In this document: positions 5,152-58,370 of the stretch, piece by piece | Position numbering within the stretch: the first letter of the stretch is position 1 | Layout of the letters: each line of letters begins with the position of its first letter | Source: Paenibacillus sp. FSL K6-3182 | Lineage (GTDB): Bacteria > Bacillota > Bacilli > Paenibacillales > Paenibacillaceae | NCBI RefSeq assembly: GCF_037976325.1 | Contig: NZ_CP150265.1 | Location: 5,407,001-5,471,000 of the forward strand | Direction: 5' to 3' | DNA: 64,000 nt | Program-made: the position numbers and the translations under genes | The notes under the pieces: model-generated | What the model saw: only the letters and a program-made list of their open reading frames with translations | The model's database searches: none | Told to the model about the DNA's origin: nothing

Positions 5152-5159
5152 ATTTACTT

Positions 5160-6242: not shown

Positions 6243-6265
6243 AAGTACCGCCCCTTTTTTATCAA

Positions 6266-6304
6266 GAGAACTCCGCCTTTATGTAGATGTAAGGGGGAGT
6301 TCTC
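6266..6304 (-). terminator. Intercistronic hairpin after the binding-protein gene
   Basis: GAGAACTCC (6266-6274) pairs with GGAGTTCTC (6296-6304), with an inner CCTT/AAGG pair. On the minus strand it is followed by TTGATAAAAAA rather than a U-run. It may be a leaky terminator or a hairpin that stabilises the upstream binding-protein mRNA while lowering downstream expression. Confidence 0.55.
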
Positions 6305-6335
6305 ATTTTGCCTGTCTTTGTATGAAGGTTAATAA

Positions 6336-8075
6336 TCAGTTAAGCTCCGAGAGGGCTTTCTTCATTTCCCCGTCCCAGAAAGTGTAAACCTTGTCAATCC
6401 CCATCTTCTCAAGTTCCTTGATGATCTTCGCTTTGTGACCGACGAAGTCATCCGCAAGAATGAGCTTGATGACCTCCTGGTTCAGATAATTGACGATACG
6501 GTCCGAAATCAGCTTAATCTCATCTGGCTCACTGGGCGGCAGCAACGGAGTAAGTTCTGCCACGCGTGTTTTGCCGTACTCTTGGCCCTTGGGCGGTATC
6601 TTGTTCGGAAATTCTGCATTGTAGTACGAAGTGATTTCCTTTTTCAGCGCATTTTCGGGCTTTTCCAGTTGGATCTTCATGTAGGTTTGACTATTTCTGA
6701 AATCAAGTGGATTCTTAGTGCCAGGGATGAACCCCGTTATATCTAGTCCGGATTGGTTCGCATATTTCCGATATCCGAACTTCAAGGCATTTTCGGCGTC
6801 TTTCTCGTTCTCGAAATAAGTATCTGTATACTTATACTCACCGTTCTCGATTACCCAATCCTGTCCTTCGATCCCATTAATAATCGTAAGCACGCCTTCA
6901 ACAGAATATAAGTAGTTGATCAATTCCATTGCTCTTTCTGGATTTTTCGAGTCTTTGCTGATTGCATACACAAAGTTTTGTCCTTTGTTTGCCGTATTGT
7001 AATAATAGTTTTCTCCACTCATAGGAATTGGGTTGTCTGCGGTCCAACCTTTGTCATAGATCTTCTTGGATTGGAAATAGGCGTTTGATCCGCCAATCAC
7101 CCAGTTAATATAGGTGGCAAGTACCTGTCCAGTATTATATTTCTGAACAGCCTGATCATACTTTTGAGTCCAACTGTCCGGATCAATGAGCCCCGCTTTG
7201 TTGGCCTTATTCCAGAAATCAAGATCAGTCCAGAATCCCGAGTTTTCATTCGTGTATTTGTTGAAGTATTCGAAGGACTCCCTGTCGATTTGAAGAATAT
7301 TCGTCAGTCCGCCTATCACCTCTGCTCCTTGACGTCTTACGTTCCAGTGATCGGCCAGTATTCCGTAGCCCCAGTCCAACCATAATGAGAACCCATGGTA
7401 AGGCTTTCCGTCTTCATTTTTAGGATGAAGCTTTTTCATCTCTGAGACAACCTTGATATAATCATCGGGTGTTTCGATTGCTGGGTAACCGAGCTCTTTG
7501 TAATAATCCCATCTTACATAGGGACCCGCCCAGATCGTTTCAGGCAATACTGGGCCGTCAGTGCTAATTTCGGAGCCAAGGAATTTCAATTGCCCATCTC
7601 CAAACATATCTTTATAATAAGAAATCGTTTCAGGACTGATGTTCTTTTTGATGTCTTGTCCATATTTTTCAAGAAGTGGTTCCATATCAATAACTAGGCT
7701 TTTCATTTGATCAAAGTTCTTCTTGGGAATAACCATAATATCTTTCAGATCGTTAGTGGCGAGAATGGCTGCCAGCTTCTCATCGGATGGCTGGGTTTCC
7801 ATATCGAGTTCAATATTAAACTTTTCTTCGATATGCTTCATAATCGGATCGTCCTGACGTCCTGTCGGGGAACTGGCCCACAATTCTGCTGCCCAGAATG
7901 ACAAGCCTATCTTTTCCCTCGGGTTTTCTTGAGCGACTGTCTCTCCTTGATTAGTTGGCGCTTGTTCACCTGCGTTCTTGTTTTTCTGCTCGCGATTGTT
8001 ACTTGTGCACGCAGTGTTAAACGCGAGTGCAGCAATGAGGATCACAGTTGACAATTTTCCCATTCGCCTCTTCAT
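6336..8075 (-). CDS. Extracellular solute-binding lipoprotein of a CUT1 sugar importer
   Basis: A 579-residue binding protein of the large LplA/YtcQ type, delivering oligosaccharide to the two permeases encoded immediately upstream. The start is set at 8075 because AGGGGG lies 8 bases before this ATG; the open frame continues 19 codons further without a ribosome site. The N-terminus is a basic stretch, a hydrophobic core and FNTAC, a somewhat poor lipobox (Asn at -3) whose Cys would be lipidated. The mature part has the typical PDDYIKVVSEMKKLHPKN and YAISKDSKNPERAMELINYL segments. It is the third gene of the permease-permease-binding protein operon and is followed by the hairpin at 6266-6304. 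Confidence 0.9.
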   Translation of the reverse strand: MKRRMGKLSTVILIAALAFNTACTSNNREQKNKNAGEQAPTNQGETVAQENPREKIGLSFWAAELWASSPTGRQDDPIMKHIEEKFNIELDMETQPSDEKLAAILATNDLKDIMVIPKKNFDQMKSLVIDMEPLLEKYGQDIKKNISPETISYYKDMFGDGQLKFLGSEISTDGPVLPETIWAGPYVRWDYYKELGYPAIETPDDYIKVVSEMKKLHPKNEDGKPYHGFSLWLDWGYGILADHWNVRRQGAEVIGGLTNILQIDRESFEYFNKYTNENSGFWTDLDFWNKANKAGLIDPDSWTQKYDQAVQKYNTGQVLATYINWVIGGSNAYFQSKKIYDKGWTADNPIPMSGENYYYNTANKGQNFVYAISKDSKNPERAMELINYLYSVEGVLTIINGIEGQDWVIENGEYKYTDTYFENEKDAENALKFGYRKYANQSGLDITGFIPGTKNPLDFRNSQTYMKIQLEKPENALKKEITSYYNAEFPNKIPPKGQEYGKTRVAELTPLLPPSEPDEIKLISDRIVNYLNQEVIKLILADDFVGHKAKIIKELEKMGIDKVYTFWDGEMKKALSELN

Positions 8076-8141
8076 ACCCATACCCCCTGATATTTTTAAA
8101 ATAATGCTTATTGTAACCTGCAAGCAGGGCAATAACGAAAG

Positions 8142-9029
8142 TTATCCTTTTACCGATCCAAGCATAATGCCCTTTACAATAAACTTTTGCATAAACGGGT
8201 ATACAAGTATGATCGGAAATACCGTTACCATAGTGATTGTGGTCTTGATCGAAAACGAATCAAGTTGCTTGTTGCTCGCAACATTTTCCAGATTGATATT
8301 ACCCTGCATTGCTGCTCTGGCAAGAGACTCCGCCTGCTGCAGGTAGTTGTAAAGCATGAGCTGTAACGTTTGAAGATTCGGATTGGATACAAGGAAAAAA
8401 TTGTCCTGCCAGGCATTCCATTGGCTCACCGCATTAAACACCGCTACAGCTGCGATTACCGGCAGACAAACCGGTGCTGTAATCCTCCACAAAATCGTAA
8501 AGTATCCAGCTCCATCGACTAGGGCCGACTCCTCAAGCGCAGTCGATATCGATTCCATGTACGTCTTGATCAAAATAACTGCGAAGGGTGAAATCATTCC
8601 AGGCAGTACATAGAGCCAAAAGGTATTGTTTAACGCTAAGGTTTTCATGATAACGAACCAGGGTATGAGACCGGCGTTAAAGAAAAGCGTAATCACAGTA
8701 GCTCTATATATCCACTTTCTACCTGGAAGAACATTCTTAGTTACCACAAATGCCAACATTATGGAGAAGAACAACATCAAAGCAGTTCCAACGATTGTTC
8801 TTGCGGCAGAGATACCGAAAGCCATCAGGATTCCGTCCAACTTTAGAACACTTTTGAAATTATCTAGATGGAATCCGATTGGAAAGTAAAGCACCTCTCC
8901 CATAGCTACAGCGTGCGCATCACTCACAGAGGCAATAAAGATATAATAGAAGGGATAGATACACAAGAGAGTAAAAAGCAAGAAAACTGTTGTATTGATA
9001 ATTTGAAATGTATAATCTCTCTTCTTCAT
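8142..9029 (-). CDS. Sugar ABC transporter permease (LplC/YtcP-like, COG0395 type)
   Basis: Second membrane component of the importer: 295 residues, about six transmembrane segments, and the EAA-loop sequence LEESALVDGAGYFTILWRI near the middle that docks the ATPase. The C-terminus IVKGIMLGSVKG is characteristic of YtcP-like permeases. AAGGAGG precedes the ATG. It lies 15 bases after the partner permease and about 66 bases before the binding-protein start. No ATPase gene is nearby. Confidence 0.93.
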   Translation of the reverse strand: MKKRDYTFQIINTTVFLLFTLLCIYPFYYIFIASVSDAHAVAMGEVLYFPIGFHLDNFKSVLKLDGILMAFGISAARTIVGTALMLFFSIMLAFVVTKNVLPGRKWIYRATVITLFFNAGLIPWFVIMKTLALNNTFWLYVLPGMISPFAVILIKTYMESISTALEESALVDGAGYFTILWRITAPVCLPVIAAVAVFNAVSQWNAWQDNFFLVSNPNLQTLQLMLYNYLQQAESLARAAMQGNINLENVASNKQLDSFSIKTTITMVTVFPIILVYPFMQKFIVKGIMLGSVKG

Positions 9030-9044
9030 CGTTTTTCCTCCTTG

Positions 9045-9998
9045 TTAAAATATCGACTGGTTTCTTAATTTCTTCGAAATATAGTTGGCACTTAACAGCA
9101 AAATAATACTGATAACTGTCTTGGCCATTCCGATTGCCGTAGACATCGGATAATTGTTGAGTGTGATGCCAAGCCTATAAACATACACATCCAGCACCTG
9201 AATCTTAGATTGGGTAAGCCCATTCTGAAACAGAAAGTATTGTTCAAATCCCGTATTTAGCAGCCCGCCGATATTCAACAACAACAGTGTGATGAAAGTG
9301 GGAATCAGACCGGGCATAGTGATATGCCACATCCGCGTGAATCGACCCGCCCCATCCACCGAAGCTGCATCGTATTGTTCCTGATCGATCCCTGCAATTG
9401 CAGCAATATAGATGATGGCTCCGAAGCCCAGCGATTTCCATATCGAGATGGCTGTTTGAAAATACCAGACAATGTCGGAGTTTGCTAGAGGGTTAAGCGG
9501 TTCAGAGATCCAACCCAGATTGAGCAATACTTTATTAAGAATGCCATCCCCTGGGGCAAATATAGCGTAAGCAAACGAGAAGACCAGAATCCAACTGATA
9601 AAATTGGGAAATGTGCTTATCGTCTGAATAAGCTTCCGTAGTCTGCTATTCGTCATCTCCATAAGGAAGATGGCGAATATTACAGCAATCGGCGTAGATA
9701 AAAGACTGAGAAAACTAAGAACAAGAGTATTGCGCAGCACGTTGGACAACTCAGGGTCGTCAAACGCGAACACAAACCACTTAAAGCCCACAAACTCGGT
9801 ACCTAACAATTTGAGTCCTGGTTTGTAATCGAAGAATGCCATGGCCCAACCCGCCAATGGGAGATAAGAAAATACGATCAAGATAATAACGCAAGGAATT
9901 GCCATTAGCAGTAGGGTTATTTTCCCTGAATCCATCCTCTTATTCCTTTTGGCAATGTACACTTTCTGTTTATTGACCTGCAAGTTGTTTGTTGACAT
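9045..9998 (-). CDS. Sugar ABC transporter permease (LplB/YteP-like, COG4209 type)
   Basis: First membrane component of the same importer: 317 residues, a basic cytosolic N-terminus (about 1-28) and then six predicted membrane helices. The EAA loop reads QYDAASVDGAGRFTRMWHI, and the C-terminus ISKKLRNQSIF is typical of the LplB group. AGGGG lies before the ATG. It is the first gene of the minus-strand operon and is divergent from the kinase/regulator pair at 10140-13533, which probably controls it. Confidence 0.93.
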   Translation of the reverse strand: MSTNNLQVNKQKVYIAKRNKRMDSGKITLLLMAIPCVIILIVFSYLPLAGWAMAFFDYKPGLKLLGTEFVGFKWFVFAFDDPELSNVLRNTLVLSFLSLLSTPIAVIFAIFLMEMTNSRLRKLIQTISTFPNFISWILVFSFAYAIFAPGDGILNKVLLNLGWISEPLNPLANSDIVWYFQTAISIWKSLGFGAIIYIAAIAGIDQEQYDAASVDGAGRFTRMWHITMPGLIPTFITLLLLNIGGLLNTGFEQYFLFQNGLTQSKIQVLDVYVYRLGITLNNYPMSTAIGMAKTVISIILLLSANYISKKLRNQSIF

Positions 9999-10139
9999 CT
10001 AAGTACCCCTAATCTATGATATGTTTGATTTCTGAAATCCTATAGGTTCATAGTAATACGATCTCATAATGGAATGCTATTCTTAGAATTTTAGGAATTT
10101 GCAATAATTATGAATTCTTTCCTGGAGGTTAACCAAACG

Positions 10140-11987
10140 ATGATCTCACTGTATTCCAGGTTTATTAAACGAAAATTTTTCAATCGACTTCTTATCATAT
10201 ACACGGCGATCATTATCCTTACGGTCATTCTATTCAGCATGTCCGTCATTCACAGTCTGAAGCGGTCGGCTGAACAAGACGGTCTTCACAAGGTAAAAGA
10301 AAGCGCTTCCATAGCAATGAACTATATGGAAGAAAAATCCGAATCTGTAACTTTACTGACAAGACAGATTTATCTTAATCCAGTACAACACCAAAGTATG
10401 ATGGACTTTCTTTCCAGAAAAATTACCAATTACAACGAAGTTGATTATATGGGAGCATCTGTGATCAATAACTACCTTAATGCAGTTGCATCCCTGGATA
10501 ACGATATCTTTGATGCCGTACTGTATAAGAAGATCAGCGAAGACCTCATGTTTACTTCTAATTATTTGATCTTGAACAGCCAGAGTTTCATTGCGAACAA
10601 CACATCCTCTTTCAGGAAAATGGACGATGCTTTTTATGGTCTCTCAATTACTCCCTCATATCTTCAAGATTATGCAAGTTCAAAGCAATTGCGAGTTTTT
10701 TCTATTTCATCGAACATCCGCGCACCCTTTGCCCTTTCCGATGAAGATAAGACTTCATTGTACAACCGAAGCATCGCCATCCTGACCGTAAACTATAACG
10801 CAGAACGAATTGTCCGCCATTTCGACAAAATTGTTAGCGGTAAGTTTTCACCTGAAATTATTGTGTTAAGTCAAAACGGTGACGTGATTTTGGACACTAC
10901 CGGCGAGTATTACGGAAAGACATACTCTCATTTCCGACAAGACAGTCCGACACCGATTACCCATTTGGAGCAAGCCAGTCTCGTCAGTTCCTTTTATAAT
11001 GAGAAACTAGGCTATTATGTCGTAGCTATACTGCCGCGCTCTCAAATTATGGTTTCTATCCAGTCCTCCATAAACACGGTTGTACTTATCGCTGCAGTGT
11101 GTGCGGCGTTTGCCTTATGTTTCGGTATAGTCAGTATTCGGTTATTCTCAAGAAGGGTTAATCTCATCAATAAAGCAATCCAGAAAGTACAGATGGGCAA
11201 TTTGAATTACCAGATTCCTGTCAGCAAGAATCAGGATGAGATCAACAGCATTGCGGTTAATTTCAATCATATGTGCAATATGCTCAAGGATTATATCAAT
11301 AAGATCTACATTTCTGATTTATTGCAGAAGGACGCCCAGATCCATGCGCTTCAAGCCCAAATCAATCCCCACTTTCTTTACAACACACTGGAAGTAATCC
11401 GAATGGAAGCATTGTCTTATGGAGATGAGAGTACAGGGCATATGATTGAGCTTCTTGCCCAACTATTCAGAAATAGCATCAAAGGAGAGTTGGTCGTTAC
11501 GATCAAAGACGAGTTGGAATTCTGCAACAGCTATCTCGAACTGTACCATGTCAGGTATAGTAATAACCTGGTATTCGATTTCCGAATCGATGAAAGCATT
11601 CATCGATTCGGTATTCCCAAGCATCTTTTGCAACCGATCATTGAGAATGCTTTGATTCATGCTGTAGATCATTCAAGACCCGAAAACCATATAACGATCC
11701 ATGGTTACAGACAAGAACAGCAGATTGTGATTGAAATATCGGATGATGGGCAGGGGATGAATGACTCAACGAGGGATCAAATCAGAGAACAACTCAGTAT
11801 CACTAGTGAAATAAACCACAATAAAATTGGTCTTTCCAATGTTCATAGGCGTATTCAATTATTATTCGGTAAGGAATACGGCGTGGATATTGACAGCAAA
11901 TCCGATAGGGGCACTACCGTACGTATATGTATTCCAACAAAAAGCCGAGAGGAGATGTTGAGTGATGTACAAAGTTTTGCTGGTTGA
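10140..11987 (+). CDS. YesM-type sensor histidine kinase
   Basis: Membrane sensor kinase, 615 residues from the ATG at 10140, which has GGAGG 11 bases upstream; an in-frame ATG at 10110 lacks a clear site. The layout is a transmembrane helix near residues 15-38, an extracellular dCache-like sensor to about 305, a second helix about 310-332, HAMP about 335-390, a His_kinase domain with the phospho-acceptor His in QINPHFLYNTLEV (about 411), and an HATPase domain with IIENALIHAVD and SDDGQGM. The kinase presumably senses extracellular sugar and phosphorylates the regulator in the overlapping next gene. It is divergent from the permease operon. Confidence 0.93.
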   Translation: MISLYSRFIKRKFFNRLLIIYTAIIILTVILFSMSVIHSLKRSAEQDGLHKVKESASIAMNYMEEKSESVTLLTRQIYLNPVQHQSMMDFLSRKITNYNEVDYMGASVINNYLNAVASLDNDIFDAVLYKKISEDLMFTSNYLILNSQSFIANNTSSFRKMDDAFYGLSITPSYLQDYASSKQLRVFSISSNIRAPFALSDEDKTSLYNRSIAILTVNYNAERIVRHFDKIVSGKFSPEIIVLSQNGDVILDTTGEYYGKTYSHFRQDSPTPITHLEQASLVSSFYNEKLGYYVVAILPRSQIMVSIQSSINTVVLIAAVCAAFALCFGIVSIRLFSRRVNLINKAIQKVQMGNLNYQIPVSKNQDEINSIAVNFNHMCNMLKDYINKIYISDLLQKDAQIHALQAQINPHFLYNTLEVIRMEALSYGDESTGHMIELLAQLFRNSIKGELVVTIKDELEFCNSYLELYHVRYSNNLVFDFRIDESIHRFGIPKHLLQPIIENALIHAVDHSRPENHITIHGYRQEQQIVIEISDDGQGMNDSTRDQIREQLSITSEINHNKIGLSNVHRRIQLLFGKEYGVDIDSKSDRGTTVRICIPTKSREEMLSDVQSFAG

Positions 11988-13533
11988 TGACGAGCCGAAA
12001 ATTATTCAAGGATTGCAGCGTTTGATTGATTGGGAAGACTTCGGCATGGAGGTAGTCGGTACAGTCCAATCCGCAGCGGAAGCGATGGCGATCATGGAAG
12101 GCGAAACGGTTCACGTCCTGATTACTGATATAAAAATGCCTAATGTGGATGGACTTCAATTGATCCAATGGACAAAGTCCTTCAATCGGCTAATCAAATG
12201 TGTCATTCTTAGTGGTCATGCCGACTTCCCATTGGTGAAAGAAGCAGCTGTGCTCGGAATTGAGAATTACTTGCTCAAACCGGTAAATCGGGAAGAATTG
12301 TCCGACACACTTATTGGTATATACTGGAAAATAGAAAGTTATTTATCTGAACAAACACAGTTGAGAAGCGATGCAGTCATTCTGAGAAATAATATTATCA
12401 ACCGTTGGCTAGTGAATCGAATCGGACGCCAGGAACTTGAGCAAAGAGCCGATTTGCTAAACATCAAATTTGATTCTCCTTATATCATCGTCAGCTTAAT
12501 AAAGATCTTATATAGAGATTCCGATACTGATCATGACAGGGATTTGATTCAATATGCCGCCGAGAATATTTGCTCAGAGCTTGCAACGTGGGCTGTTACA
12601 GTCTGTGATCCATATGGACATATCGTAAGTATATTTCCTAGCGAGTCTGAAGACAAAATCCTGCAAATCCAGAATGTTTTAAAGGACTGCTCTGAATCCA
12701 TTACAGCCTATCTTAAACGTGATGTGTTTATCACGATCGGGACCCGTGAAAGGGAGCTGCCCGACGTCCATCTCAGTTATAAACGTGCTCTGCATTTAAT
12801 GGATTATAGCCTTGTAATGCCAATGAATTCAATTATGGATGACTCGGAGCAGTCTCCCCTGAAAAGCATCATTCCAATCAACATCGATTATAATCAGCTA
12901 CAGTCTTGTTTGATCAACGGGAATGGTGCCGGAGTATTGACCTTTATTGAGGAAACTTTATCCGAACTATCCAGTGTAGGAGGTGTTTCGCCTTCGCTCG
13001 TACAGAATGTCACTATTGAAATTGCCCACCACTTGCTTAGCTATACCCATAAAATAGACCCTGATCATGCGTTTCAGATGAAAAATCAGGGAAGTCTTGT
13101 AGCAGAGTTGCAGCAACAACAAAACATGGATGAACTAAGGATATGGCTTAGTTCGCTAGCACAGACAACTTTTCAGATTGCTCATCTGAGAGACGATGAT
13201 ATGAATCCGATCATCAAGCGCATACTGGACTATGTTGACCGTCATTATATGGAAAACATTTCACTCAAAACCATTTCCAACGCTTTTAATGTGAATGCGG
13301 CGTATATGGGACAACAATTCATAAAGGCCATGAATGATACTTTCTCCAACTATTTAAACATCAAACGTATCGAGAAAGCCAAGGAATTGATTATGACAAC
13401 CGATTTGCATCTGCAGGAAATTGCGATCCGAGTCGGTTATCATAACCAAAGTTACTTTAACAATATGTTCAAGAAACATACCGGTGGTTACCCTACGAAA
13501 TACAAAATAACTGCAAGAGCCCTTTATTCCTAG
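11962..13533 (+). CDS. YesN-type response regulator with AraC DNA-binding domain
   Basis: A 523-residue regulator. It has a receiver domain at residues 1-120 with LLVDDEP and the phosphorylatable Asp of LITDIKMP (about 56), a long linker domain, and a C-terminal AraC-type double helix-turn-helix from about 413 ending in the usual NQSYFNNMFKKHTGGYPTKYK region. The gene overlaps the kinase by 26 bases. The start is GTG 11962 or ATG 11965; AGAGGAG lies 7-10 bases upstream and fits either. It probably activates the divergent importer/hydrolase operon. Confidence 0.93.
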   Translation: MMYKVLLVDDEPKIIQGLQRLIDWEDFGMEVVGTVQSAAEAMAIMEGETVHVLITDIKMPNVDGLQLIQWTKSFNRLIKCVILSGHADFPLVKEAAVLGIENYLLKPVNREELSDTLIGIYWKIESYLSEQTQLRSDAVILRNNIINRWLVNRIGRQELEQRADLLNIKFDSPYIIVSLIKILYRDSDTDHDRDLIQYAAENICSELATWAVTVCDPYGHIVSIFPSESEDKILQIQNVLKDCSESITAYLKRDVFITIGTRERELPDVHLSYKRALHLMDYSLVMPMNSIMDDSEQSPLKSIIPINIDYNQLQSCLINGNGAGVLTFIEETLSELSSVGGVSPSLVQNVTIEIAHHLLSYTHKIDPDHAFQMKNQGSLVAELQQQQNMDELRIWLSSLAQTTFQIAHLRDDDMNPIIKRILDYVDRHYMENISLKTISNAFNVNAAYMGQQFIKAMNDTFSNYLNIKRIEKAKELIMTTDLHLQEIAIRVGYHNQSYFNNMFKKHTGGYPTKYKITARALYS

Positions 13534-13794
13534 CTACTTACGTATTTTTACATGTATACAGATTGATGACGATTTTTTGTAGACAACTCGTCTATATTTT
13601 TCCTGTATTGTACCTATTGGAATAAACTATGCGCTTGGATGTTTGAAAAACAGGATAATACTAGCGTGATGCGGGGCTATTCGATAAAATAGCGGCTTTA
13701 AATACTTCGCGTGGAAAAATTTTAAAATAATCGAATAAAAAAAGACAGATTGTTAACTTATTAATATTAATTAGATAAGAAAACTAATATCGAA

Positions 13795-14037
13795 ATGGTG
13801 CAAAAGGACAGCGAGTGCTTGGAGTGGAATATCCCTTCCTCCTCTTATGATGACTTGTGGAATCTGGACCCGGATCGCACCGCTGCCGCCGCATCAGCCG
13901 CTCAATCGCAGGCCGCTGACACCAAACGTTTTCCGCCACGGCCAGAAAAAGATCTCATCTGGTTCATTGAGGAGTACTGCCCTAAGATAAATCGTGGGAG
14001 AAAATTCGCGATCAATCTTTTGTGTAAACTCATATAG
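13795..14037 (+). pseudogene. spoVR: spoVR remnant with internal deletion
   Basis: The open frame contains DLWNLDP and then PPRPEKDLIWFIEEYCP, which matches my memory of the N-terminal region of SpoVR (stage V sporulation protein R, a family of roughly 450-470 residues). Right after EEYCP the similarity in this frame stops. In the +1 frame at about 13994-14026 there is WEKIRDQSFV, resembling a segment far downstream in SpoVR. The simplest reading is a gene corpse that lost most of its middle, with a frameshift at the junction. No good ribosome site is visible. Confidence 0.65.
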
Positions 14038-48540: not shown

Positions 48541-48636
48541 AAAAAAATACTGGATGCTCTCATTGATCAAGCAAAGATGGAGATTGAAGAATGTGATACA
48601 TTGCTTACTGATAACGGAATTGCTTTCTACACCCCA
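48541..48636 (+). pseudogene. Possible DUF3231/coat-like fragment
   Basis: The frame reads KKILDALIDQAKMEIEECD and then LLTDNGIAFYTP, which resembles a helix of ferritin-fold DUF3231 proteins found in spore formers. A ribosome-site-like AGGAGGAGAT stands before it, but no start codon or continuation exists. The frame runs on into sequence belonging to the L,D-transpeptidase relic in another frame. Confidence 0.35.
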
Positions 48637-48644
48637 ATTCTTAG

Positions 48645-49115
48645 ATACAAACTAACAAGGAATACAAAGTCGTATACAAGGGAGAAAACTGGGGTCCCTC
48701 TTTTGGTCCACGATGGCTAGGATTAAACGTCCCTTGGGGGAATTATGGCATTCACGGCACGAACAAACCGTTTTCTATCGGGCAGCATTTGAGTCACGGT
48801 TGTATACGTATGCGCAACAATGATGTCATTGAATTATTCGAAATGATTCCACTCGGGGCTAAAGTAACGATATATGGACACATATTGGGGGATCCGAATC
48901 ATGAACCGAGGGATTTGGCGGAAGGTGACGTCGGAGAAGATGTACAACTAATTCAGTCTCGTTTAAAGAGCTCCGGATACTTTAATGGAATATGTAATGG
49001 AAAATTTCGCTCGAATACAACCACAGCTGTAAAACATTTTCAACGTGATCATCATTTGGCGCAGAACGGTGTTGTATCAAATAAGGTATATGAGGAATTG
49101 GGATTGTTGGAATAA
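48645..49115 (+). pseudogene. 5'-truncated L,D-transpeptidase with peptidoglycan-binding domain
   Basis: The frame opens after a TAG at 48642 and contains KVVYKGENWGPSFGPRW, NYGIHGTN, and the catalytic SHGCIRMRN with Cys and His of the YkuD fold. A C-terminal peptidoglycan-binding repeat follows (DVGEDVQLIQSRLKSSGYF). The N-terminal third of the YkuD domain is missing. The first possible start (TTG 48789) would begin inside the catalytic motif and drop YGIHG. It is therefore a decayed cell-wall enzyme. A shorter expressed product of 108 residues is possible but would lack most of the fold. Confidence 0.72.
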
Positions 49116-49757: not shown

Positions 49758-49916
49758 TTAGCTGAAACAATGGTAATTTGGAAGTTGTACAGCCTCCCTA
49801 AGGCGCGCGGGTGTATTCATTTGATAGGTATTGACAGAGTCTGCGCGGTTTCTTCCCGATAAGTAGTTAACAAAAAAATCAGTGTTTTCATAAGAGGATG
49901 ACCCTTTTTTTCCCAT
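49758..49916 (-). CDS. Small ORF (52 residues) at the end of the RiPP-like operon
   Basis: ATG 49916 has a perfect AGGAGG 7 bases upstream, and the ORF begins 32 bases after the DUF1854 stop on the same strand. The product starts with MGKKGSSSYENTDFF and contains NRADSVNTYQMNTPARLREA and a single Cys near the C-terminus. I do not recognise it. The N-terminus is basic with no signal peptide. It may be a second peptide of the system, a small accessory protein, or the head of a longer gene cut by rearrangement; the Gln-rich relic lies on the other strand just beyond its stop. Confidence 0.5.
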   Translation of the reverse strand: MGKKGSSSYENTDFFVNYLSGRNRADSVNTYQMNTPARLREAVQLPNYHCFS

Positions 49917-49948
49917 ACGAATACCTCCTGACTTTTACAAACCGTTAA

Positions 49949-50446
49949 TCAGATCAGCTTCTTCCAATATTCACGGCTTCGGGCATCCATCTGCTCTGGA
50001 TCGGACAGCTCGAAGCGGCGGCCTTCATTGTCCGTTACCATCCAGCGGCTTTCCGTTACGGGTTGGATATTTTCATGAAGGTTATCCATGACCAATGCTG
50101 CCGGGCCATAATTCGTATCGACCTGCAAATACCACTTGCTGCCTCTTTTTCTAACAGTCAGGATTTGTTTAATGACAGGAATCATATAATTTCGGTCAAG
50201 CTCTTCTCGTACCGCCTGAAAGCTATCTTCCGTGAGAAGCTTCACATCCTGTATCATTGCAATTTCACGCCCTTCCGCCGAGCGAACCGAGATGAACCTG
50301 TCGGGCATTGTATACGGAAAACTGCGAATAAGTGTTACGCGGGCAAACCCCTTACCTTCCTGCTCCAAATGCAAAATACCTTCAGAAGATCGGAACAAAC
50401 GGATTTGACTTAGCTCCGAGCGGCTTAAAAAGAATAACGGGTTCAT
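49949..50446 (-). CDS. DUF1854 protein
   Basis: 165 residues from ATG 50446, with GGAGGTCGG in front. The first 36 codons of the longer open frame overlap the ABC gene and lack a site. Beta-rich and soluble; RFISVRSAEGREIAMIQDV and the C-terminal RRFELSDPEQMDARSREYWKK fit my memory of DUF1854, a family often encoded next to ABC exporters. It directly follows the ABC gene (stop and start one base apart), so it is probably a partner of that exporter. Confidence 0.8.
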   Translation of the reverse strand: MNPLFFLSRSELSQIRLFRSSEGILHLEQEGKGFARVTLIRSFPYTMPDRFISVRSAEGREIAMIQDVKLLTEDSFQAVREELDRNYMIPVIKQILTVRKRGSKWYLQVDTNYGPAALVMDNLHENIQPVTESRWMVTDNEGRRFELSDPEQMDARSREYWKKLI

Positions 50447-50447
50447 C

Positions 50448-52709
50448 TTATCCGACCTCCGATGGTATTTTCGCTGTTTGTTTTTGCGATTCGACCAAAC
50501 GATAATAATGCGTTTGTTTCGCGTAAAGCTCTTCATGCGTCCCCATTTCAACAATGCGGCCTTGGTCGAGGACTACAAGCCTGTCTGCATGACGTAAAGT
50601 GGATAAGCGATGGGCAATCGCGATAGTGGTTCTTCCCCGGATTAAGCGGCTTAACGCTTCTTGAATGAGCCGCTCCGTCTCCGTATCAACAGATGCTGTC
50701 GCTTCATCTAAGATCAAAATCTCCGGATCAAGCAGCAGCGCTCTCGCAATTGCGATACGCTGTTTCTCCCCGCCCGATAAACGGTGTCCGCGTTCCCCGA
50801 CGCGCGTATCGTAGCCTTCCGGCAGACGACAAATAAAATCGTGGGCATTCGCGGCGTGGGCAGCTGCGATAATGGTCTCCGGCGGACTATCCGGACGGCC
50901 GTAGGCTATGTTCTCGGCAATCGTACCATCGAACAAAAACGTTTCCTGAAGCACGACGCCAATATGCTTCCGGAGACTCTCCTGCCGGATATCTCTCAAG
51001 TCGTGCCCGTCAAGCGCAACGCTTCCAGCATTCGGGTCATAAAATCGGCAAATCATGTTTATGAGAGTCGTTTTCCCTGCACCGGAGCGGCCAACCAGCC
51101 CGATCATTTCACCGGGACGTATAGTGAGGTTAATATCTTTTAGCACCGGTCGTTCCACTTCATACCCGTAACGTACACCATGAAAGCGGATCTCGCCAGA
51201 CACGGAAGAAAGCTCTACCGCGTCCCGCTTATCAGGGACATCAACCTTCGCATCGATGATTTCGAGAATCCGTTCGGCCGAGCCAAGCGAGCGGTTAAGC
51301 CAGCTTAATAGCTGTCCGGAGGCTTGAACAGGCCCGAAGAACATGAGCAAATAGGTCGTAAAGGCGGTCAATGTTCCAATAGACATGGTGCCGGACATGA
51401 CCGATCGTCCTCCCAAATACCAAACAGCGATGCCGAACACAGCCGTCAGTACCGTAAAAATCGGAGATACGCCAAGCCAAAGATTACCGAAGGAAATCGT
51501 GCGATTGATCCAATGATTATTCACCTTGTCAAAACGGTTTTTCTCGGCATTTTCCTGCGCAAAGGCTTTAATGACTCGAATGCCTTGTAGCGCTTCGCCA
51601 ATCACATTGTTGACATGCAAAGCAGATTGCCATTGCGAATACCAAAGTGAGCTCAGCCTCTTCCACAGCCAATAGAATCCGGCAAACAAGAATGGGGTCG
51701 GGATCAGAATCATCGCTGCCAGCTGCCAATTCAGATGGAATAGCATAAACAGGATGCCTACGGCGAGCAGCATCTGCGTGACTAGATACACCATGCCGTT
51801 TGTCAAAAATTCTTTTAATTCATCGGTATCATCCTGGATACGGCCGATAAATTGAGAGACCTGGCGGTGATCGAAGAAGCGCATCGAAAGCTTCATTAAA
51901 GCGCCGAACATATCCCGGCGGATCGCCCCTACCAGTTTCCCGCCTATTCGAACGCCAAGGTAGCTTCGGATGACTTGCATCGCAGCAGATAACACCTGTA
52001 CAAGGGCCAAACCGCTTGCCAAGGCAAAAAGCATATTCAAGCTTCCAGACGGTTTGGCCACTTCATCCACAATCATTTTGATCAAATAGGGTGGGATCAC
52101 TTCAATAAATACGGATAAAACAAGCAGCAGCGCACTTACCAGCATGGGGCTTCGGTACGGGGTACAATAAGCCGCCAACCTGCGCAGCAAGGACCATTTG
52201 CTGCTGCAATTTAAACACTTGCTTGTTCCGGGAGAGGCGGTTTTGTCGCATTTTGAGCATCTATACGTTTCCGTACTTTCTTCTAGAGCTGGGAGGGTAA
52301 GACCTCCAGTTTCGTCCCCTTCCGCCAACCAGTTCCTTATCGCGGGAATAGCCTGTCGGAAAGGCTCGATGTACGGAAGTGAGAATCTCGCAGCTTCTAT
52401 CTCGCCATCACCAGTTATAATAAAAAACGATGCTCCGCCGAAAGCCTCGCGAACGGATACATCGATCATGTTATTCTTATGGAAGGTCATGATGGTTTTC
52501 CCTTGCCCGTCCACCATTTCCATGGTCAAAGTCTTGAAAATAACCTCGTAATGCCGAAATCGTCGTAGGGTGAGATCCACATCCGCCCTTATACGGAGCC
52601 ATGGATTCTCCGTATCCTGTTGTTTGACTGCGACGCCGTTAACAGGTTTACCAGCTTCCCGCTTCGCATTCTCCGTTTTCAATTTAAAATACTCCTTTGT
52701 CAATGTCAC
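50448..52709 (-). CDS. ABC exporter with zinc-ribbon N-terminal extension
   Basis: 753-residue half-transporter. An N-terminal soluble region (about 1-145) is followed by a zinc ribbon with Cys151, Cys154, Cys165 and Cys168. Six membrane helices (about 185-470) and an ATPase domain come next: Walker A GRSGAGKT, signature LSGGEKQ, Walker B ILILDEATAS, H-loop AHRLS. There is no C39 peptidase domain, so it would not cut a double-Gly leader itself. It likely exports the mature peptide or a related product. It starts 10 bases after the S24/S26 peptidase gene. Confidence 0.9.
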   Translation of the reverse strand: MTLTKEYFKLKTENAKREAGKPVNGVAVKQQDTENPWLRIRADVDLTLRRFRHYEVIFKTLTMEMVDGQGKTIMTFHKNNMIDVSVREAFGGASFFIITGDGEIEAARFSLPYIEPFRQAIPAIRNWLAEGDETGGLTLPALEESTETYRCSKCDKTASPGTSKCLNCSSKWSLLRRLAAYCTPYRSPMLVSALLLVLSVFIEVIPPYLIKMIVDEVAKPSGSLNMLFALASGLALVQVLSAAMQVIRSYLGVRIGGKLVGAIRRDMFGALMKLSMRFFDHRQVSQFIGRIQDDTDELKEFLTNGMVYLVTQMLLAVGILFMLFHLNWQLAAMILIPTPFLFAGFYWLWKRLSSLWYSQWQSALHVNNVIGEALQGIRVIKAFAQENAEKNRFDKVNNHWINRTISFGNLWLGVSPIFTVLTAVFGIAVWYLGGRSVMSGTMSIGTLTAFTTYLLMFFGPVQASGQLLSWLNRSLGSAERILEIIDAKVDVPDKRDAVELSSVSGEIRFHGVRYGYEVERPVLKDINLTIRPGEMIGLVGRSGAGKTTLINMICRFYDPNAGSVALDGHDLRDIRQESLRKHIGVVLQETFLFDGTIAENIAYGRPDSPPETIIAAAHAANAHDFICRLPEGYDTRVGERGHRLSGGEKQRIAIARALLLDPEILILDEATASVDTETERLIQEALSRLIRGRTTIAIAHRLSTLRHADRLVVLDQGRIVEMGTHEELYAKQTHYYRLVESQKQTAKIPSEVG

Positions 52710-52719
52710 TTTCCGGCAG

Positions 52720-53160
52720 TTACATACGCTCGTTTCTTTCTGCGCACCATCGAATCACTTTGTGCCATTTAGGTACACGCAAAGCCAGTACAGCAAGCAG
52801 CCTGGATCTCCAATGATTCGAAGCTTGAAAACGGTTGTTACGGCGAACGCCGGACCATCGTCCCAGAATGCTTGTGAACGGTACGGGATCATCCGGCTCA
52901 TAGCATGTATCTCCCTTGAAGATAAATAATTCCTTTGAGCCGTCCTGCTTTACGGCGTACAGCCTGTGTCCGATCAACGCACCTTGGTCCGTAACAAATA
53001 AACATATATCGCCAAGTTTCAATTTTTCCCGTTGCACGGACAAGAAAGTGCTTACGTTTCCTTCCTTGATCAAGGGATACATGCTGATACCCGCAGAGGG
53101 CAGCTCGATCTTTCCGGTTCGCTGGATTACTGCTGACATAACTGGCGTCAAATCATGCAT
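52720..53160 (-). CDS. S24/S26-type peptidase (signal-peptidase-like)
   Basis: A 146-residue serine peptidase-like protein. The nucleophile is Ser26 in SAGISMYPLI, His65 lies in LIGHRLY and an acidic box KGDTCYEPDDPV contains Asp84. The Ser/His layout resembles the archaeal/SipW type rather than the Ser/Lys bacterial type. No membrane helix is evident. The start overlaps the PqqD stop (ATG inside the final codons). In this operon it is the obvious candidate to remove the leader of the small peptide, which is inference. Confidence 0.82.
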   Translation of the reverse strand: MHDLTPVMSAVIQRTGKIELPSAGISMYPLIKEGNVSTFLSVQREKLKLGDICLFVTDQGALIGHRLYAVKQDGSKELFIFKGDTCYEPDDPVPFTSILGRWSGVRRNNRFQASNHWRSRLLAVLALRVPKWHKVIRWCAERNERM

Positions 53161-53431
53161 TTATTAGCAGTCCGGCCTCAATCAGCATCTCAACAAACGC
53201 CTGAACGTCATCGAGGACAACTTCCATCTCAACGCCATATTCGGTATGTACTTTTTCTGCCAGCTCCGCGACAGTTGGAAATTCGGGAAGAATCGACCAA
53301 ATATAACCTCCAAGCTCGTTCACTTTCGTGATGGCGTGGGTGTCGATGTTCAGCAGCAGCCACTCGCCATCCAGCTCAGCCGTCTCGATATTTTCCCGTC
53401 TCAGCAGTGTTTGGTCTGCCAGTATCGTCAT
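53153..53431 (-). CDS. PqqD-like peptide chaperone (RiPP recognition element)
   Basis: 92 residues from ATG 53431, which overlaps the kinase stop in an ATGA arrangement and has GGGGAG upstream. The family features are LLRRENIETAELDGEW at the start, the ITKVNELGGYIW segment, then a helical C-terminus (VLDDVQAFVEMLIEAGLL). PqqD/RRE domains bind the leader of a precursor peptide and present it to enzymes. The leader partner is likely the 54324-54470 product. Confidence 0.88.
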   Translation of the reverse strand: MTILADQTLLRRENIETAELDGEWLLLNIDTHAITKVNELGGYIWSILPEFPTVAELAEKVHTEYGVEMEVVLDDVQAFVEMLIEAGLLINA

Positions 53432-54222
53432 GATATCACTCCCCAAAAGGTATCGTTTTTCTGAAAATATAGCTCATAAGCCGGTACGCCTTCTACCGCC
53501 TGCTTGCAAAGCGCAATCATCTTTGCCGTTTCCAGCTTGTTATGCTCCCAATAAAAAACCTTATCAAGAAGTGAAATCAGCGCGTCGCCTTTGCGGATAC
53601 CTACCCGCCTTACATCCTGCGATTGGATCAGAAAATGAATGCCTGCCAAAGGACTGCTTGGAAGCTCGCATGCTTCTTCCATTTCACTCCGAAATGGGGA
53701 ATCGTGGATTGTAATCGAACCATCCGGCTCAAACAATAGGAGCGTAGCCTCATCGGAAAGAATAGGACGGGGAACGGAAAGATCAGCTACCGTCGACTTG
53801 CCTGCTCCTGATGGCCCGGCGAACATCCAAGCGCGGTCATCCTCCACCACGCATGACGAATGGATGAGCAGCCCTGCGCGCCGATGGATCAGCCAGGCGC
53901 TGTAGAGATTGATTAAGGCGTGCTTGAGTGCAAGGTCATCGTGAACATAAATTTTTGCCTGGCTGTAATCAGGTGTTGTCACCAGCTTATAGTCCGCACG
54001 GATATAGACATATTCGCTGCCGTTCTCTTGAATCTCGACAGGACCGTCGTCGAAAGGTTTCCCGTAAAAGTCATAGACCTCCACGTGAATGTTAGGCGCT
54101 TCAAGATTTCTGCTTGCTTCAAAGGAACGAAAACGCGCGGTCAATTCATCATATAAAAAGGTAGTTTGAATTTGAAAATCGATCGAACTCCTGCCGACCT
54201 GTGTATGCAATGTGTACATCAT
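53428..54222 (-). CDS. HPr-kinase-like protein
   Basis: 264 residues. An N-terminal beta-rich region precedes an HPrK-type P-loop AGPSGAGKST (136-144 core) with His121 just upstream. A PILSDEAT stretch (155-160) follows, as in HPrK and related RiPP kinases. Homologous kinases occur in Paenibacillus lasso-peptide loci (PadeK, which phosphorylates the peptide's C-terminal Ser) and in HPr-rel-A systems. The likely role is phosphorylation of the peptide or a partner. GGGCGG precedes the start. The start may be 54222 or the next ATG. Confidence 0.85.
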   Translation of the reverse strand: MMYTLHTQVGRSSIDFQIQTTFLYDELTARFRSFEASRNLEAPNIHVEVYDFYGKPFDDGPVEIQENGSEYVYIRADYKLVTTPDYSQAKIYVHDDLALKHALINLYSAWLIHRRAGLLIHSSCVVEDDRAWMFAGPSGAGKSTVADLSVPRPILSDEATLLLFEPDGSITIHDSPFRSEMEEACELPSSPLAGIHFLIQSQDVRRVGIRKGDALISLLDKVFYWEHNKLETAKMIALCKQAVEGVPAYELYFQKNDTFWGVIS

Positions 54223-54260
54223 TATGCACCGCCCGTTCTTCAGAAGTTATTCCTGAGAAT

Positions 54261-54299
54261 AAAAAGGGAGCAAACTCGATCGTTAGCTCCGCTTCTCAG
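54261..54299 (-). terminator. Attenuator behind the precursor gene
   Basis: On the minus strand GGAGC, a 14-base loop and GCTCC are followed by CTTTTTATT. An alternative outer pairing CTGAGAA/TTCTCAG encloses it. Placed between precursor and kinase, it would give much more precursor than enzyme mRNA. Confidence 0.65.
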
Positions 54300-54323
54300 A
54301 TAAAATCTATCATTGCTTTCTAG

Positions 54324-54470
54324 TTAACCTCCGATAAAATGCCTGCAAAACATAGGTTTAAAATTACGTTTTTGGCACCATTCGTAGCCACCGACTTTAT
54401 CGCTTGGTCTTGCTGTTCCAAATTCGACAGTATGCTGCGTAAGTACTTTAGGAGCTTCATATTTTTTCAT
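54324..54470 (-). CDS. Precursor-like small peptide (48 residues) of the RiPP-like operon
   Basis: ATG 54470 has AAGGAGGTGA about 6 bases upstream, the best ribosome site in the operon. The product begins MKKYEAPKVL; the Y4-x-x-P7 pattern resembles the leader motif read by PqqD-type RREs in lasso systems. A Gly27-Gly28 pair follows, then a cationic aromatic stretch with Trp31, Cys32, Cys42, His44 and a C-terminal Gly-Gly (FIGG). It has no signal peptide. It has its own promoter and attenuator and sits between nucleotidyltransferase and kinase genes. A disulphide Cys32-Cys42 is possible. Core boundaries are not known. Confidence 0.75.
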   Translation of the reverse strand: MKKYEAPKVLTQHTVEFGTARPSDKVGGYEWCQKRNFKPMFCRHFIGG

Positions 54471-54503
54471 TTCGTTCACCTCCTTTCAAGGAATTTATGT
54501 CAT

Positions 54504-54533
54504 ATTATAGTTATAGTCAATGATATTTATGAA
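54504..54533 (-). promoter_or_regulatory. Promoter of the precursor-like gene
   Basis: On the minus strand TTCATA (54533-54528), 18 bases, TATAAT (54509-54504). The predicted leader is short (about 27 bases). The surrounding DNA is very AT-rich, unlike the flanking genes. Confidence 0.6.
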
Positions 54534-54606
54534 ATTTAGTAAAATAATACTACGATAAAATGTATTAATACCTGCTTTTTGTATATCTAAAACGAGAATA
54601 TTTGAT

Positions 54607-55764
54607 TTAATTCTTCTTTTGTTTGGCACGAATGGTTCGAATCCAAAATTGTAGTCTTCTCTTATAGATTTTGGCATAGATTTTGCTCATCGGCGCATTC
54701 GAATCCGGGACATCTGATCTATTGGCATACTTTAATAGGTCTAAGGCATAATCTCTTGGCGGCAGCAGTAAATAACGCAGATGCGCCCACTGTTGTTTAA
54801 CCGAATCGTAGGCGACGAAGGCAGAAAACAGATGGAAGCCATAAAATCGCCAGTTTCTGATCCCGAATTGGGCATTTCGCATCAGTTCGATATTCCAAAG
54901 CGGCCAGCGTCTCCGTACGTTTAGCGGCTTGGTTTCATGCAGCTCGGGAAACAAGTCATAGACAATTGTCAGCGCAATTAGTACTTTGGCATAGTTCCCA
55001 TCGCTCTTTGCCTGTGCAAAGAGCTGGCCGTAGTCTATTTCTGCGCTGCAGCATCTCAGGACGTGCAAAATATCGATAACGTACTTCAGTGATAACATAT
55101 TATGGTTATAGCCATGAAGGCATAGGTAGTAAAAGGTGTCCTTGGCCGAAAGCTCCTTCACCAACTGATAGGGAGAAATCGGTTCTGCATCCATCCAAAA
55201 GCTGCTCATATCCGTATCCGAGACATGTTCGCGCAAAATATTCCAATGCAGCTCCACCCCGAGCAGCGGGAAATCCTCATTCGCATAAAATTTATTCAAC
55301 AGCGTATGGAAATGATCCGCATCGTCTTCTATATACCGGATAAACTCATGGCGCTCCAATAGGGCAACCGCCTTATCCAAATCTTCTGGACGTACAAGCA
55401 GATCGATATCGGATGTTCCCCTGCCCGAAAAATGTCCAAAAAAACGTTCAGACAGCCGAATGCCTTTCAGCACGATCACTTGAATTCCTGAACGCTCAAA
55501 CGCATCAAGAAGCTTGTACATCTCGGAGCGGATCAGCATGTTTTGAAACAAAACAGCATCCACGCCCGATTTAAGCCTGCTTCGGTGCTCGGAAGGCACG
55601 GCTTCCAATAAGCCGCTGCTCTTCAATAAATAATAAACTTGGGGAGCGACTTGGAAAATATCGATATCGTCAATTGCTGCTTTAGCCGTCTCCTCGGAAT
55701 CAAATAACGGATGTTGGTTTTGGTAGATCCGGCTTATAAGCGTTACCGCTTTCGAGTGTTTCAT
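54607..55764 (-). CDS. Nucleotidyltransferase-fold protein of the RiPP-like operon
   Basis: 385 residues. LKGIRLSERFFG and RGTSDIDLLV (Asp119, Asp121) are the nucleotidyltransferase signature. A long helical region follows, with HWNILREH and DTFYYLCLHGYNHNML. It looks like the NTP_transf_5 type found beside PqqD and HPr-kinase-like genes in RiPP loci. GAAAGGAG precedes the ATG. The C-terminus is very basic (KIYKRRLQFWIRTIRAKQKK). It is the first gene of the group and is separated from the precursor by 136 AT-rich bases. Confidence 0.85.
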   Translation of the reverse strand: MKHSKAVTLISRIYQNQHPLFDSEETAKAAIDDIDIFQVAPQVYYLLKSSGLLEAVPSEHRSRLKSGVDAVLFQNMLIRSEMYKLLDAFERSGIQVIVLKGIRLSERFFGHFSGRGTSDIDLLVRPEDLDKAVALLERHEFIRYIEDDADHFHTLLNKFYANEDFPLLGVELHWNILREHVSDTDMSSFWMDAEPISPYQLVKELSAKDTFYYLCLHGYNHNMLSLKYVIDILHVLRCCSAEIDYGQLFAQAKSDGNYAKVLIALTIVYDLFPELHETKPLNVRRRWPLWNIELMRNAQFGIRNWRFYGFHLFSAFVAYDSVKQQWAHLRYLLLPPRDYALDLLKYANRSDVPDSNAPMSKIYAKIYKRRLQFWIRTIRAKQKKN

Positions 55765-57489: not shown

Positions 57490-58370
57490 TTATACTAAAA
57501 AATAGATACAACAAATAAACCTCCATATACATGGAAGTTTATAATCAAGCCCTGCATATGCCACTAATTGTTTAGCGTATCTAAATTGAGAGGCATCACC
57601 AATTTCTGCAATAATTGAAGCAGCTATCTTCATCCCTACACCAGGTATAGTCTCCAATAACTGTACTTCCTCAATCATTTCAGACAACTCCAATATGGTT
57701 TTCTCAAGTTTGGTTAGTTGCAATTGAAATTCAGGAACAACAACGAGCAGGCTGCGCAGAGCTGTTTCTAATCCGAAAGGGACATGTGTAACTGGATTCT
57801 GGATCAAAGCTGTCTTTAAGTGATCCACTTTACGTTTCATCAAAGCTTCTGAACGAGAGGCCCTTGTTGCCTCCTTTACAGCTTGAATCCATCCTTCTTC
57901 ATCCCTACTTTGGATACCTTTTTGCGACAAATACATGTCGAGCAGGTTAAGAGAGGTTTTAGAAAACAAATCTTTAAACAATCCCTCGTATCCTGGAAAT
58001 ACTTGATCCAACAACGACCGCGTAGTGCAAGTCTCCTAAGTGCCAAGCATCTGAAGCATCTGTTTTGACCTTACGCAGACTTGTTCTTCGCGCTCTTTGA
58101 GCCTGCAAAGGATTAACAAGTATTTATGTCATACCCTTCGCTTTGTATTCGCTGAGCAAGAGTACGATGGTAGTGTGCGGTTGGTTCTAAAATGACAACT
58201 GGCTTCATCTTAGTCATCTTATCTAATTCGATTAAAACTTGAAGTAGTCGTTCTATACCATTCGGTGTATGCCAGATCACTTGGTCTCAACCATAGGGCA
58301 CATTAGGTTTAATGAATGCTTGTATGACTGATTTTCCTTTTGCTACATCAATGCCAACAACAGGTCTCAT
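57490..58370 (-). pseudogene. IS110-family transposase, decayed
   Basis: ATG 58370 begins RPVVGIDVAKGKSVIQAF, the DEDD-type N-terminus. In-frame stops (after PNVPYG, and after YDINTC) and at least two frameshifts follow (NPLQAQRARR and KTDASDAWHLGDL are in another frame). A 174-residue piece then has the helix-hairpin-helix LLETIPGVGMKIAASIIAEIG and QLVAYAGLD. The similarity ends at AGLD near 57550, so the C-terminal catalytic part is lost. It cannot be active. Confidence 0.88.

Follow-up and report, generated by a model that had tools for sequence, protein, structure and literature searches.

The window, the whole 64,000-nucleotide stretch of DNA from Paenibacillus sp. FSL K6-3182 that we analyzed, is part of a 7.56-Mb single-contig genome and carries on its minus strand, running from 55764 down to 49949, genes for a PF14907 nucleotidyltransferase, a 48-residue peptide, an HprK-like kinase, a PqqD protein, a SipW/SEC11-like peptidase, a long ABC exporter and a DUF1854 protein.

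54607..55764, minus strand: lppN-like nucleotidyltransferase, PF14907, 385 aa (138.8 bits, cut-off 31.2)
54324..54470, minus strand: lppA-like precursor, 48 aa (ribosome-binding site, purifying selection, leader motif)
53428..54222, minus strand: lppK-like HprK-type kinase, 264 aa (Walker A and D157 kept)
53153..53431, minus strand: lppB-like PqqD/RRE protein (PF05402 58.2 bits, cut-off 23.4)
52720..53160, minus strand: lppS-like SipW/S26-type leader peptidase, 146 aa (Ser26/His65/Asp90)
50448..52709, minus strand: long-type ABC exporter in the place of lppD, with an N-terminal extension and a zinc-ribbon motif, 753 aa
49949..50446, minus strand: DUF1854 protein, about 165 aa (PF08909 115.9 bits, cut-off 26.8); a longer TTG-started ORF reaches 50554

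The gene set is real and complete: every gene named in an earlier note on this DNA (nucleotidyltransferase, peptide, kinase, PqqD, peptidase, zinc-ribbon ABC exporter and DUF1854) is present on the minus strand, although what had been called an S24/S26 peptidase is of the S26/SipW type and not S24. The ATG of lppB at 53431 overlaps the stop of lppK (the kinase gene ends at 53428), and the PqqD and peptidase genes overlap in turn (53160/53153). Neither a lasso cyclase nor a B2 protease was found in the window's cluster. The range claimed earlier began at 49758, and we do not count in its first ORF (49758-49916): matches to it, in three relatives, cover no more than the first 16 to 20 residues, and the frame diverges after that. 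This ORF and the 3' flank of the DUF1854 gene in L033, L034 and L037 do have in common a ribosome-binding-site-like stretch and some 16 to 20 codons (KGSS.YENTDFFVNYL), perhaps a tiny gene, perhaps leftover homology. By eye, pieces of L,D-transpeptidase-like and peptidoglycan-binding-like reading frames lie beyond the cluster's 3' side (48577-49115), and reading-frame pieces resembling an IS110-type transposase lie on the other flank (57490-58280).

A search with the kinase gave 69 places, of which we kept the 47 close ones (E ~1e-40 or better), found in 46 of 394 genomes of the family; the 22 with E 1.9e-8 to 9.8e-6 were left out. The relatives compared below are the 46 loci outside the window's own cluster (L033-L078), fetched with about 10 kb on either side where contigs allowed. 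There, tblastn matched PqqD in 44 loci, the ABC exporter in 44, the peptidase in 41 and the nucleotidyltransferase in 40, counts that include weak or distant matches, such as the ABC ones in L059 and L078, which may lie outside the cluster. The earlier note would have abandoned its reading had relatives carried the enzymes without a small peptide; a peptide of the same family lies near the enzymes in 42 of the 46 loci, some on the other strand (L052, L057, L061), with L047 cut by a contig end. L042 has one divergent candidate, and in L067, L076 and L078 the search found none. Outside the family, the same set occurs, among the matches listed, in Cytobacillus oceanisediminis and Mesobacillus subterraneus, along with weak matches. 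Related sets are found in other Bacillota genomes (L099-L101), one of whose peptides equals a protein named from Phosphitispora fastidiosa.

The 48-residue precursor, preceded by a strong ribosome-binding site, AAAGGAGGT, consists of the leader MKKYEAPKVLTQHTVEFGT and the predicted core ARPSDKVGGYEWCQKRNFKPMFCRHFIGG. When the window is compared with six relatives (L033 being identical to it), 22 of the 147 positions of the gene vary, 15 of them in codons that keep their amino acid, where random single changes would alter it in 80% of cases; amino-acid-changing codons account for 2 of 12 variable core sites and 5 of 10 variable leader sites. Because third codon positions make up 17 of the 22 variable sites, we consider the gene constrained and translated, core included. 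Our search pattern for such peptides demanded an aromatic residue, Pro and [FVL][EG], leaving Thr and Ser free. In a strict form, the motif turns up 36 times in 32 of the 46 relatives' loci and never in 138 Markov-resampled loci. Tyr, Pro and Phe stand in 39/39 aligned peptides, and Thr two residues after Phe in 33/39.

With database matches included, the window precursor shares its leader motif with 77 other distinct peptides. Thr follows two after Phe in 72 of these 78, and a Ser lies two to six residues after the Thr place in 73 by a first-Ser rule and, on reading, in four of the remaining five. The exception is the database protein P0039, which has the window's leader with FET and then what appears to be the window's core DNA in another frame, the serine missing; it looks like a frameshift or sequencing error. 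Those matches that carry a name are annotated as "hypothetical protein" or "Uncharacterized protein." Behind the conserved Ser, tails are 3 to 64 residues long and range from Gly-rich to Cys-bearing, and 53 of the 78 peptides have no Cys in this part, on which count we rejected a general disulphide bacteriocin and, with it, the disulphide peptide of the earlier note as a general feature. Since leader end and serine are shared and tails diverse, the common chemistry should sit at the former two and not in the tail.

The earlier note had held this system to be undescribed. The cluster is, by comparison with the main text of Popov et al. (Nat Commun, 20 May 2026, PMC13381572), an lpp cluster for linear polyphosphorylated peptides (LPP), a published family. 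The worked example there is P. alginolyticus DSM5050, with the genes lppA, K, B, S, D and N. LppK phosphorylates core Ser3, the sole phosphorylation site (S3T and S3Y are not phosphorylated), and several phosphates on the core serine are a mark of LPPs; the RRE protein LppB presents the leader, as in the LppB-leader crystal structure 9x8z; and the SipW-like LppS, helped by LppB, cuts after Phe-Glu-Thr (T-1). Changes at F-3, E-2 or T-1 lowered cleavage, F-3 and T-1 contact the peptidase in a model, unphosphorylated precursor was poorly cut, and deletion of lppN changed nothing visible in the B. subtilis host (PMC13381572). The product is a linear peptide; the main text rests on this one example, gives no final product or role, and counts LPPs in 80 of 9173 Bacilli genomes (PMC13381572).

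The window has every gene of this set (HprK-like kinase, RRE protein, peptidase, PF14907 enzyme, ABC exporter), without cyclase or B2, and shares the catalytic residues and, in the main, the leader motif YxxPxVLxHQxxxFxT. Set against the motif YxxPxVLxHQxIxFETxxS, the window's stretch YEAPKVLTQHTVEFGTARPS keeps Y, P, V, L, F and T, has Gly for E-2 and places Ser one residue later. Of the earlier note's reading, the RRE-type leader holds, and a phosphorylated product is likely. The window departs from it in its two-cysteine core, in Gly at leader -2, Ser at core position 4 and Ser for Cys at peptidase residue 37, in a long, CphA_assoc_ABC-like exporter with a DUF1854 gene where PMC13381572 names an MsbA-like transporter, and in lying away from the polysaccharide genes searched. 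The words DUF1854, zinc, disulfide and FGT do not occur in the main text of PMC13381572, and peptides like the window's may be in its supplementary precursor and cluster list. By gene content, then, the window is an ordinary LPP member; in details it is a consistent variant, a sub-type differing in peptide, trimming enzyme and exporter.

The kinase, which retains the Walker A motif GPSGAGKST and D157, falls below every curated family cut-off (best ScmC, 27.9 bits vs 125) and was placed by alignment and weak model matches; the kinases of L076 and L078 have damaged Walker motifs and, together with L067 and the lasso kinase, are listed as left out of the kinase groups. Two other systems with such a kinase were rejected: HPr-rel-A (TIGR04352 22.1 of 200 bits, TIGR04353 15.9 of 35) and the SynChlorMet cassette (TIGR04249/04248; ScmC 27.9 of 125, ScmD 23.2 of 100) share the kinase and PqqD folds, the window's scores lying far below cut-off. 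For the RRE protein, the best PDB match is LppB itself (9x8z_B, E 1.5e-15), ahead of TbiB1 (2.5e-5) and the lasso protein PbaB1 (0.0046). At the position of LppB D70, the Asp that binds the leader Tyr, 37 of 40 cluster sequences have Asp and the four Bacillota lasso proteins compared have Gln or Glu, although the actinobacterial TbiB1 also has Asp there. In the tree, two Clostridia-like RRE proteins (L099, L100) lie closer to those of lasso loci, which counts against the LPP assignment. In the nucleotidyltransferase, K100, G101, R115, T117, D119, D121 and E171 are invariant in 26 aligned sequences. We found no support for the nucleotidylation of the peptide envisaged earlier; addition of a hexose to the phosphate does have a precedent, pseudomycoidin (review PMC8498205).

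In the place of a B2 protease the cluster has a signal-peptidase-like enzyme, as the earlier note had seen. It scores 48.3 bits on TIGR02228, just below the cut-off of 51.85, and matches a SEC11 profile (E 1.7e-5). Foldseek on its AlphaFold2 model (pLDDT 93.7) puts SEC11 and SipA signal peptidases first, weakly (best 7p2q_A at 1.1e-3, none at E<=0.001). Ser26, His65 and Asp90 are invariant in 31/31 sequences, with the spacing of LppS S29/H68/D93 (PMC13381572). Of 41 homologues, 36 contain no stretch of 19 residues with a mean hydropathy as high as 1.6, and the maximum overall is 1.85, which suggests that these peptidases lack a membrane anchor. Residue 37 is Ser in 10/10 sequences of the window's branch, nine of them with the leader seen, and Cys in 14/14 and 6/6 others (L067, which has Cys37, was left out, and L047, its leader not seen, was counted in the window's branch). 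Across the 146 peptidase columns it is the one that cleanly separates that branch, residue 105 doing so only in part. Two residues away from residue 37 is Phe39, which corresponds to LppS Phe42; the model of PMC13381572 sets this Phe42 beside leader F-3. The pairing of residue 37 with leader -2 may be one inherited change and not an adaptation.

The exporter, with its CxxC...CxxC motif, finds its best NCBIfam model in CphA_assoc_ABC (NF052233, 596.7 bits of 880), and the DUF1854 protein scores 84.1 bits of 150 on NF052234. Both match nearly the full model length of this cyanophycin-associated pair, yet both fall below cut-off and the window's cluster has no cyanophycin gene. A DUF1854 gene with an ABC gene of 732-809 codons occurs in 24 of the 46 relatives' loci. 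Among the 22 where the fetched stretch shows no DUF1854, the exporter has 592-651 codons in 17 and 725 in L069, where the start was probably set too far upstream; L059 and L078 yield short matches only, and L061 and L076 none. Three further long exporters that we scored all did best on CphA_assoc_ABC, and three short ones all did best on MsbA models. DUF1854 was sought in the fetched stretches only; that of genome G280 lies some 20 kb from its locus, L056, and so beyond the stretch fetched. We rejected the view that DUF1854 is specific to lpp, since 134 of 394 genomes of the family carry it, mostly outside lpp clusters. At six such places that we opened away from lpp genes, tblastn found no match to the lpp kinase, RRE protein, peptidase or transferase, and at five a long ABC gene lies nearby. 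The sub-type therefore seems to have adopted a widespread export pair, in which the DUF1854 protein is a possible partner of the exporter. An orphan DUF1854 gene (L152:9898-10395) adjoins LCP-like and other cell-wall genes, as where relatives carry the lpp cluster, and is perhaps a remnant; in L151, the DUF1854 reported by the family-wide search was not recovered by tblastn.

The exporter types go together with the place of the serine. If the residue that follows the Phe triplet is taken as position 1, position 3 is never Ser in the 22 readable DUF1854 loci and is Ser in 19/19 readable loci without DUF1854, an association whose Fisher value of 4e-12 is overstated because related genomes are not independent. 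These counts fill in seven loci with a near-identical relative's peptide and leave out L042 (divergent), L047 (contig end) and L067, L076 and L078 (no peptide found). In the window's branch, Ser stands at core position 4 in 16/16 (FGT|xxxS); in a second DUF1854 branch (n=6) it stands at 5 after Pro in five, three of which also have Ser at 2, and at 4 in L075. Leader -2 is Gly in the window's branch and Glu in others.

Taken together, our findings make it probable, at roughly 0.87, that the window holds an lpp gene cluster of a second sub-type, whose peptide would be phosphorylated, trimmed and exported as follows. The RRE protein would bind the YxxP leader of the 48-residue precursor, as the LppB structure suggests. 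The HprK-like kinase would then add one or more phosphates to a core Ser, for which we predict position 4, on the pattern shown for Ser3 in P. alginolyticus; this makes the serine there the candidate phospho-Ser. The SipW-like peptidase is predicted to cut after Phe-Gly-Thr19, where Phe-Glu-Thr is the site shown elsewhere; of the two sites given in the earlier note, Gly28 falls away and Ala20 is one residue off. The PF14907 enzyme may next glycosylate the phosphate, for which pseudomycoidin is the precedent, even though lppN deletion had no effect in the published host. The product would leave through the long ABC exporter, perhaps assisted by the DUF1854 protein.

Set against the published mutant effects, the window's Gly-2 and lack of Ser3 mean that either its enzymes have adapted or the cut must shift. 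In the latter case the family is the same and the cut falls one or two residues later (in the window after Ala20, three back from the Ser), so that a kinase of fixed register again meets Ser at core position 3. The G-T-A before such a cut, which we take to resemble classical signal-peptidase sites, was counted in its favor. So was the published restriction to Ser3, where neither Thr nor Tyr is accepted (PMC13381572). Against it, the spacing from leader Tyr to Phe/Thr is the same in both sub-types, F-3 and T-1 are the peptidase contacts of the published model, and the position behind FGT is variable (A, Q, T, V, I). Moreover, unphosphorylated precursor is poorly cut (PMC13381572), so recognition of the new N-terminus by the kinase is not required. 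We judge the shifted cut improbable. Far less probable still is a lasso locus that has lost its cyclase or borrows it from a separate lasso locus of the same genome. The cluster does share with paeninodin-type loci (including pseudomycoidin) the HprK-type kinase, the PqqD-type B1, the PF14907-type nucleotidyltransferase and an ABC exporter, and the window's own genome has a lasso locus with cyclase, precursor, kinase, B1, B2 and ABC genes. That locus lies about 3.5 Mb away (L079:6573-12371, about 1.9945-2.0004 Mb), by eye beside flippase-like, galE-like and glycosyltransferase-like genes. A cyclase and B2 occur in the fetched stretch only in L073 and L077, where lasso genes beside the lpp-like cluster speak for this reading; the lasso genes are divergent from that cluster (in L073 at about 2783-13964), for which tblastn gave no SipW-like peptidase, and the cyclase and B2 of L073 belong to a separate lasso locus that has a kinase and a precursor of its own. 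The first proposal of a RiPP-like operon that lacks a lasso cyclase is borne out, the cyclase being absent from the window's cluster and from the vicinity in 44 of the 46 relatives' loci. The prospect of an ordinary lasso locus served by a cyclase elsewhere also fares poorly, since a cyclase at E<=1e-30 is missing from 21 of the 46 kinase-bearing genomes (the other 25 carry one somewhere). Lpp-type kinases and five lasso kinases fall on opposite sides of a 100/100 branch, one for which the program warns of long branches meeting, and the window's RRE protein groups with LppB against lasso B1 at 94/84, with LppB and TbiB1 entered as PDB-match stretches. Finally, the five lasso precursors beside cyclases (L073, L077, L079, L100, L109) read WxxP where the cluster's peptides read YxxP, and the published product is linear (PMC13381572).

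A further claim is compatible with the LPP assignment and adds a role to it, namely that the peptide, once modified, is attached to a polysaccharide of the cell surface or controls it. A link of this kind is suggested by gene position in the relatives, not by the window. Of the 47 clusters, 20 have a PF02397 sugar-phosphate transferase gene no more than 20 kb away, where about 0.93 matches would be expected, and at least 13 have an LCP ligase gene no more than 5 kb away. Of the 48 lasso cyclase genes, 42 have a PF02397 gene within 30 kb, in 24 of 25 genomes, and the main text of PMC13381572 states in words both tendencies, that LPP and that lasso genes lie near polysaccharide genes. It also places LPP clusters often in capsule loci and reports joint up-regulation with an exopolysaccharide-related gene in one species, but puts the role forward as an idea only. 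Co-location is not linkage, and none of the listed PF02397 or LCP matches is near the cluster in the seven genomes of the window's own branch, the nearest PF02397 match lying about 0.47 Mb from the window's cluster. We regard such a role as rather unlikely, though less so than a shifted cut.

We tentatively propose, at somewhat less than even odds, that the window belongs to a distinct second class of LPPs, in which leader Gly-2 and LppS Ser37, the later phospho-acceptor and the DUF1854-coupled exporter changed together and whose product would be phosphoglycosylated, disulphide-bearing and bound for another destination than that of the classic LPPs. The second sub-type, found in 24 of the 46 loci, shows which features are fixed (leader Tyr, Pro and Phe, the peptidase triad and a core Ser) and which may change (position -2, serine register and exporter). 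It makes it possible to test directly how the leader is recognized by the peptidase, and it gives a reason to consider DUF1854 as an export partner. As an LPP member outside polysaccharide loci, the window may have a product that is easier to find.

A further kind of peptide, YxKPxLxxxxYAQFExVFxxC..., lies near kinase-like and peptidase-like matches in L099, L100 and L105 and may be another branch of the family. PMC13381572, in its main text, restricts LPPs to Bacillota; in an Elusimicrobiales metagenome genome, outside Bacillota, a short peptide YEKP...VFETAALACGKC (L112:10755-10896) stands beside kinase-like and PqqD-like matches.
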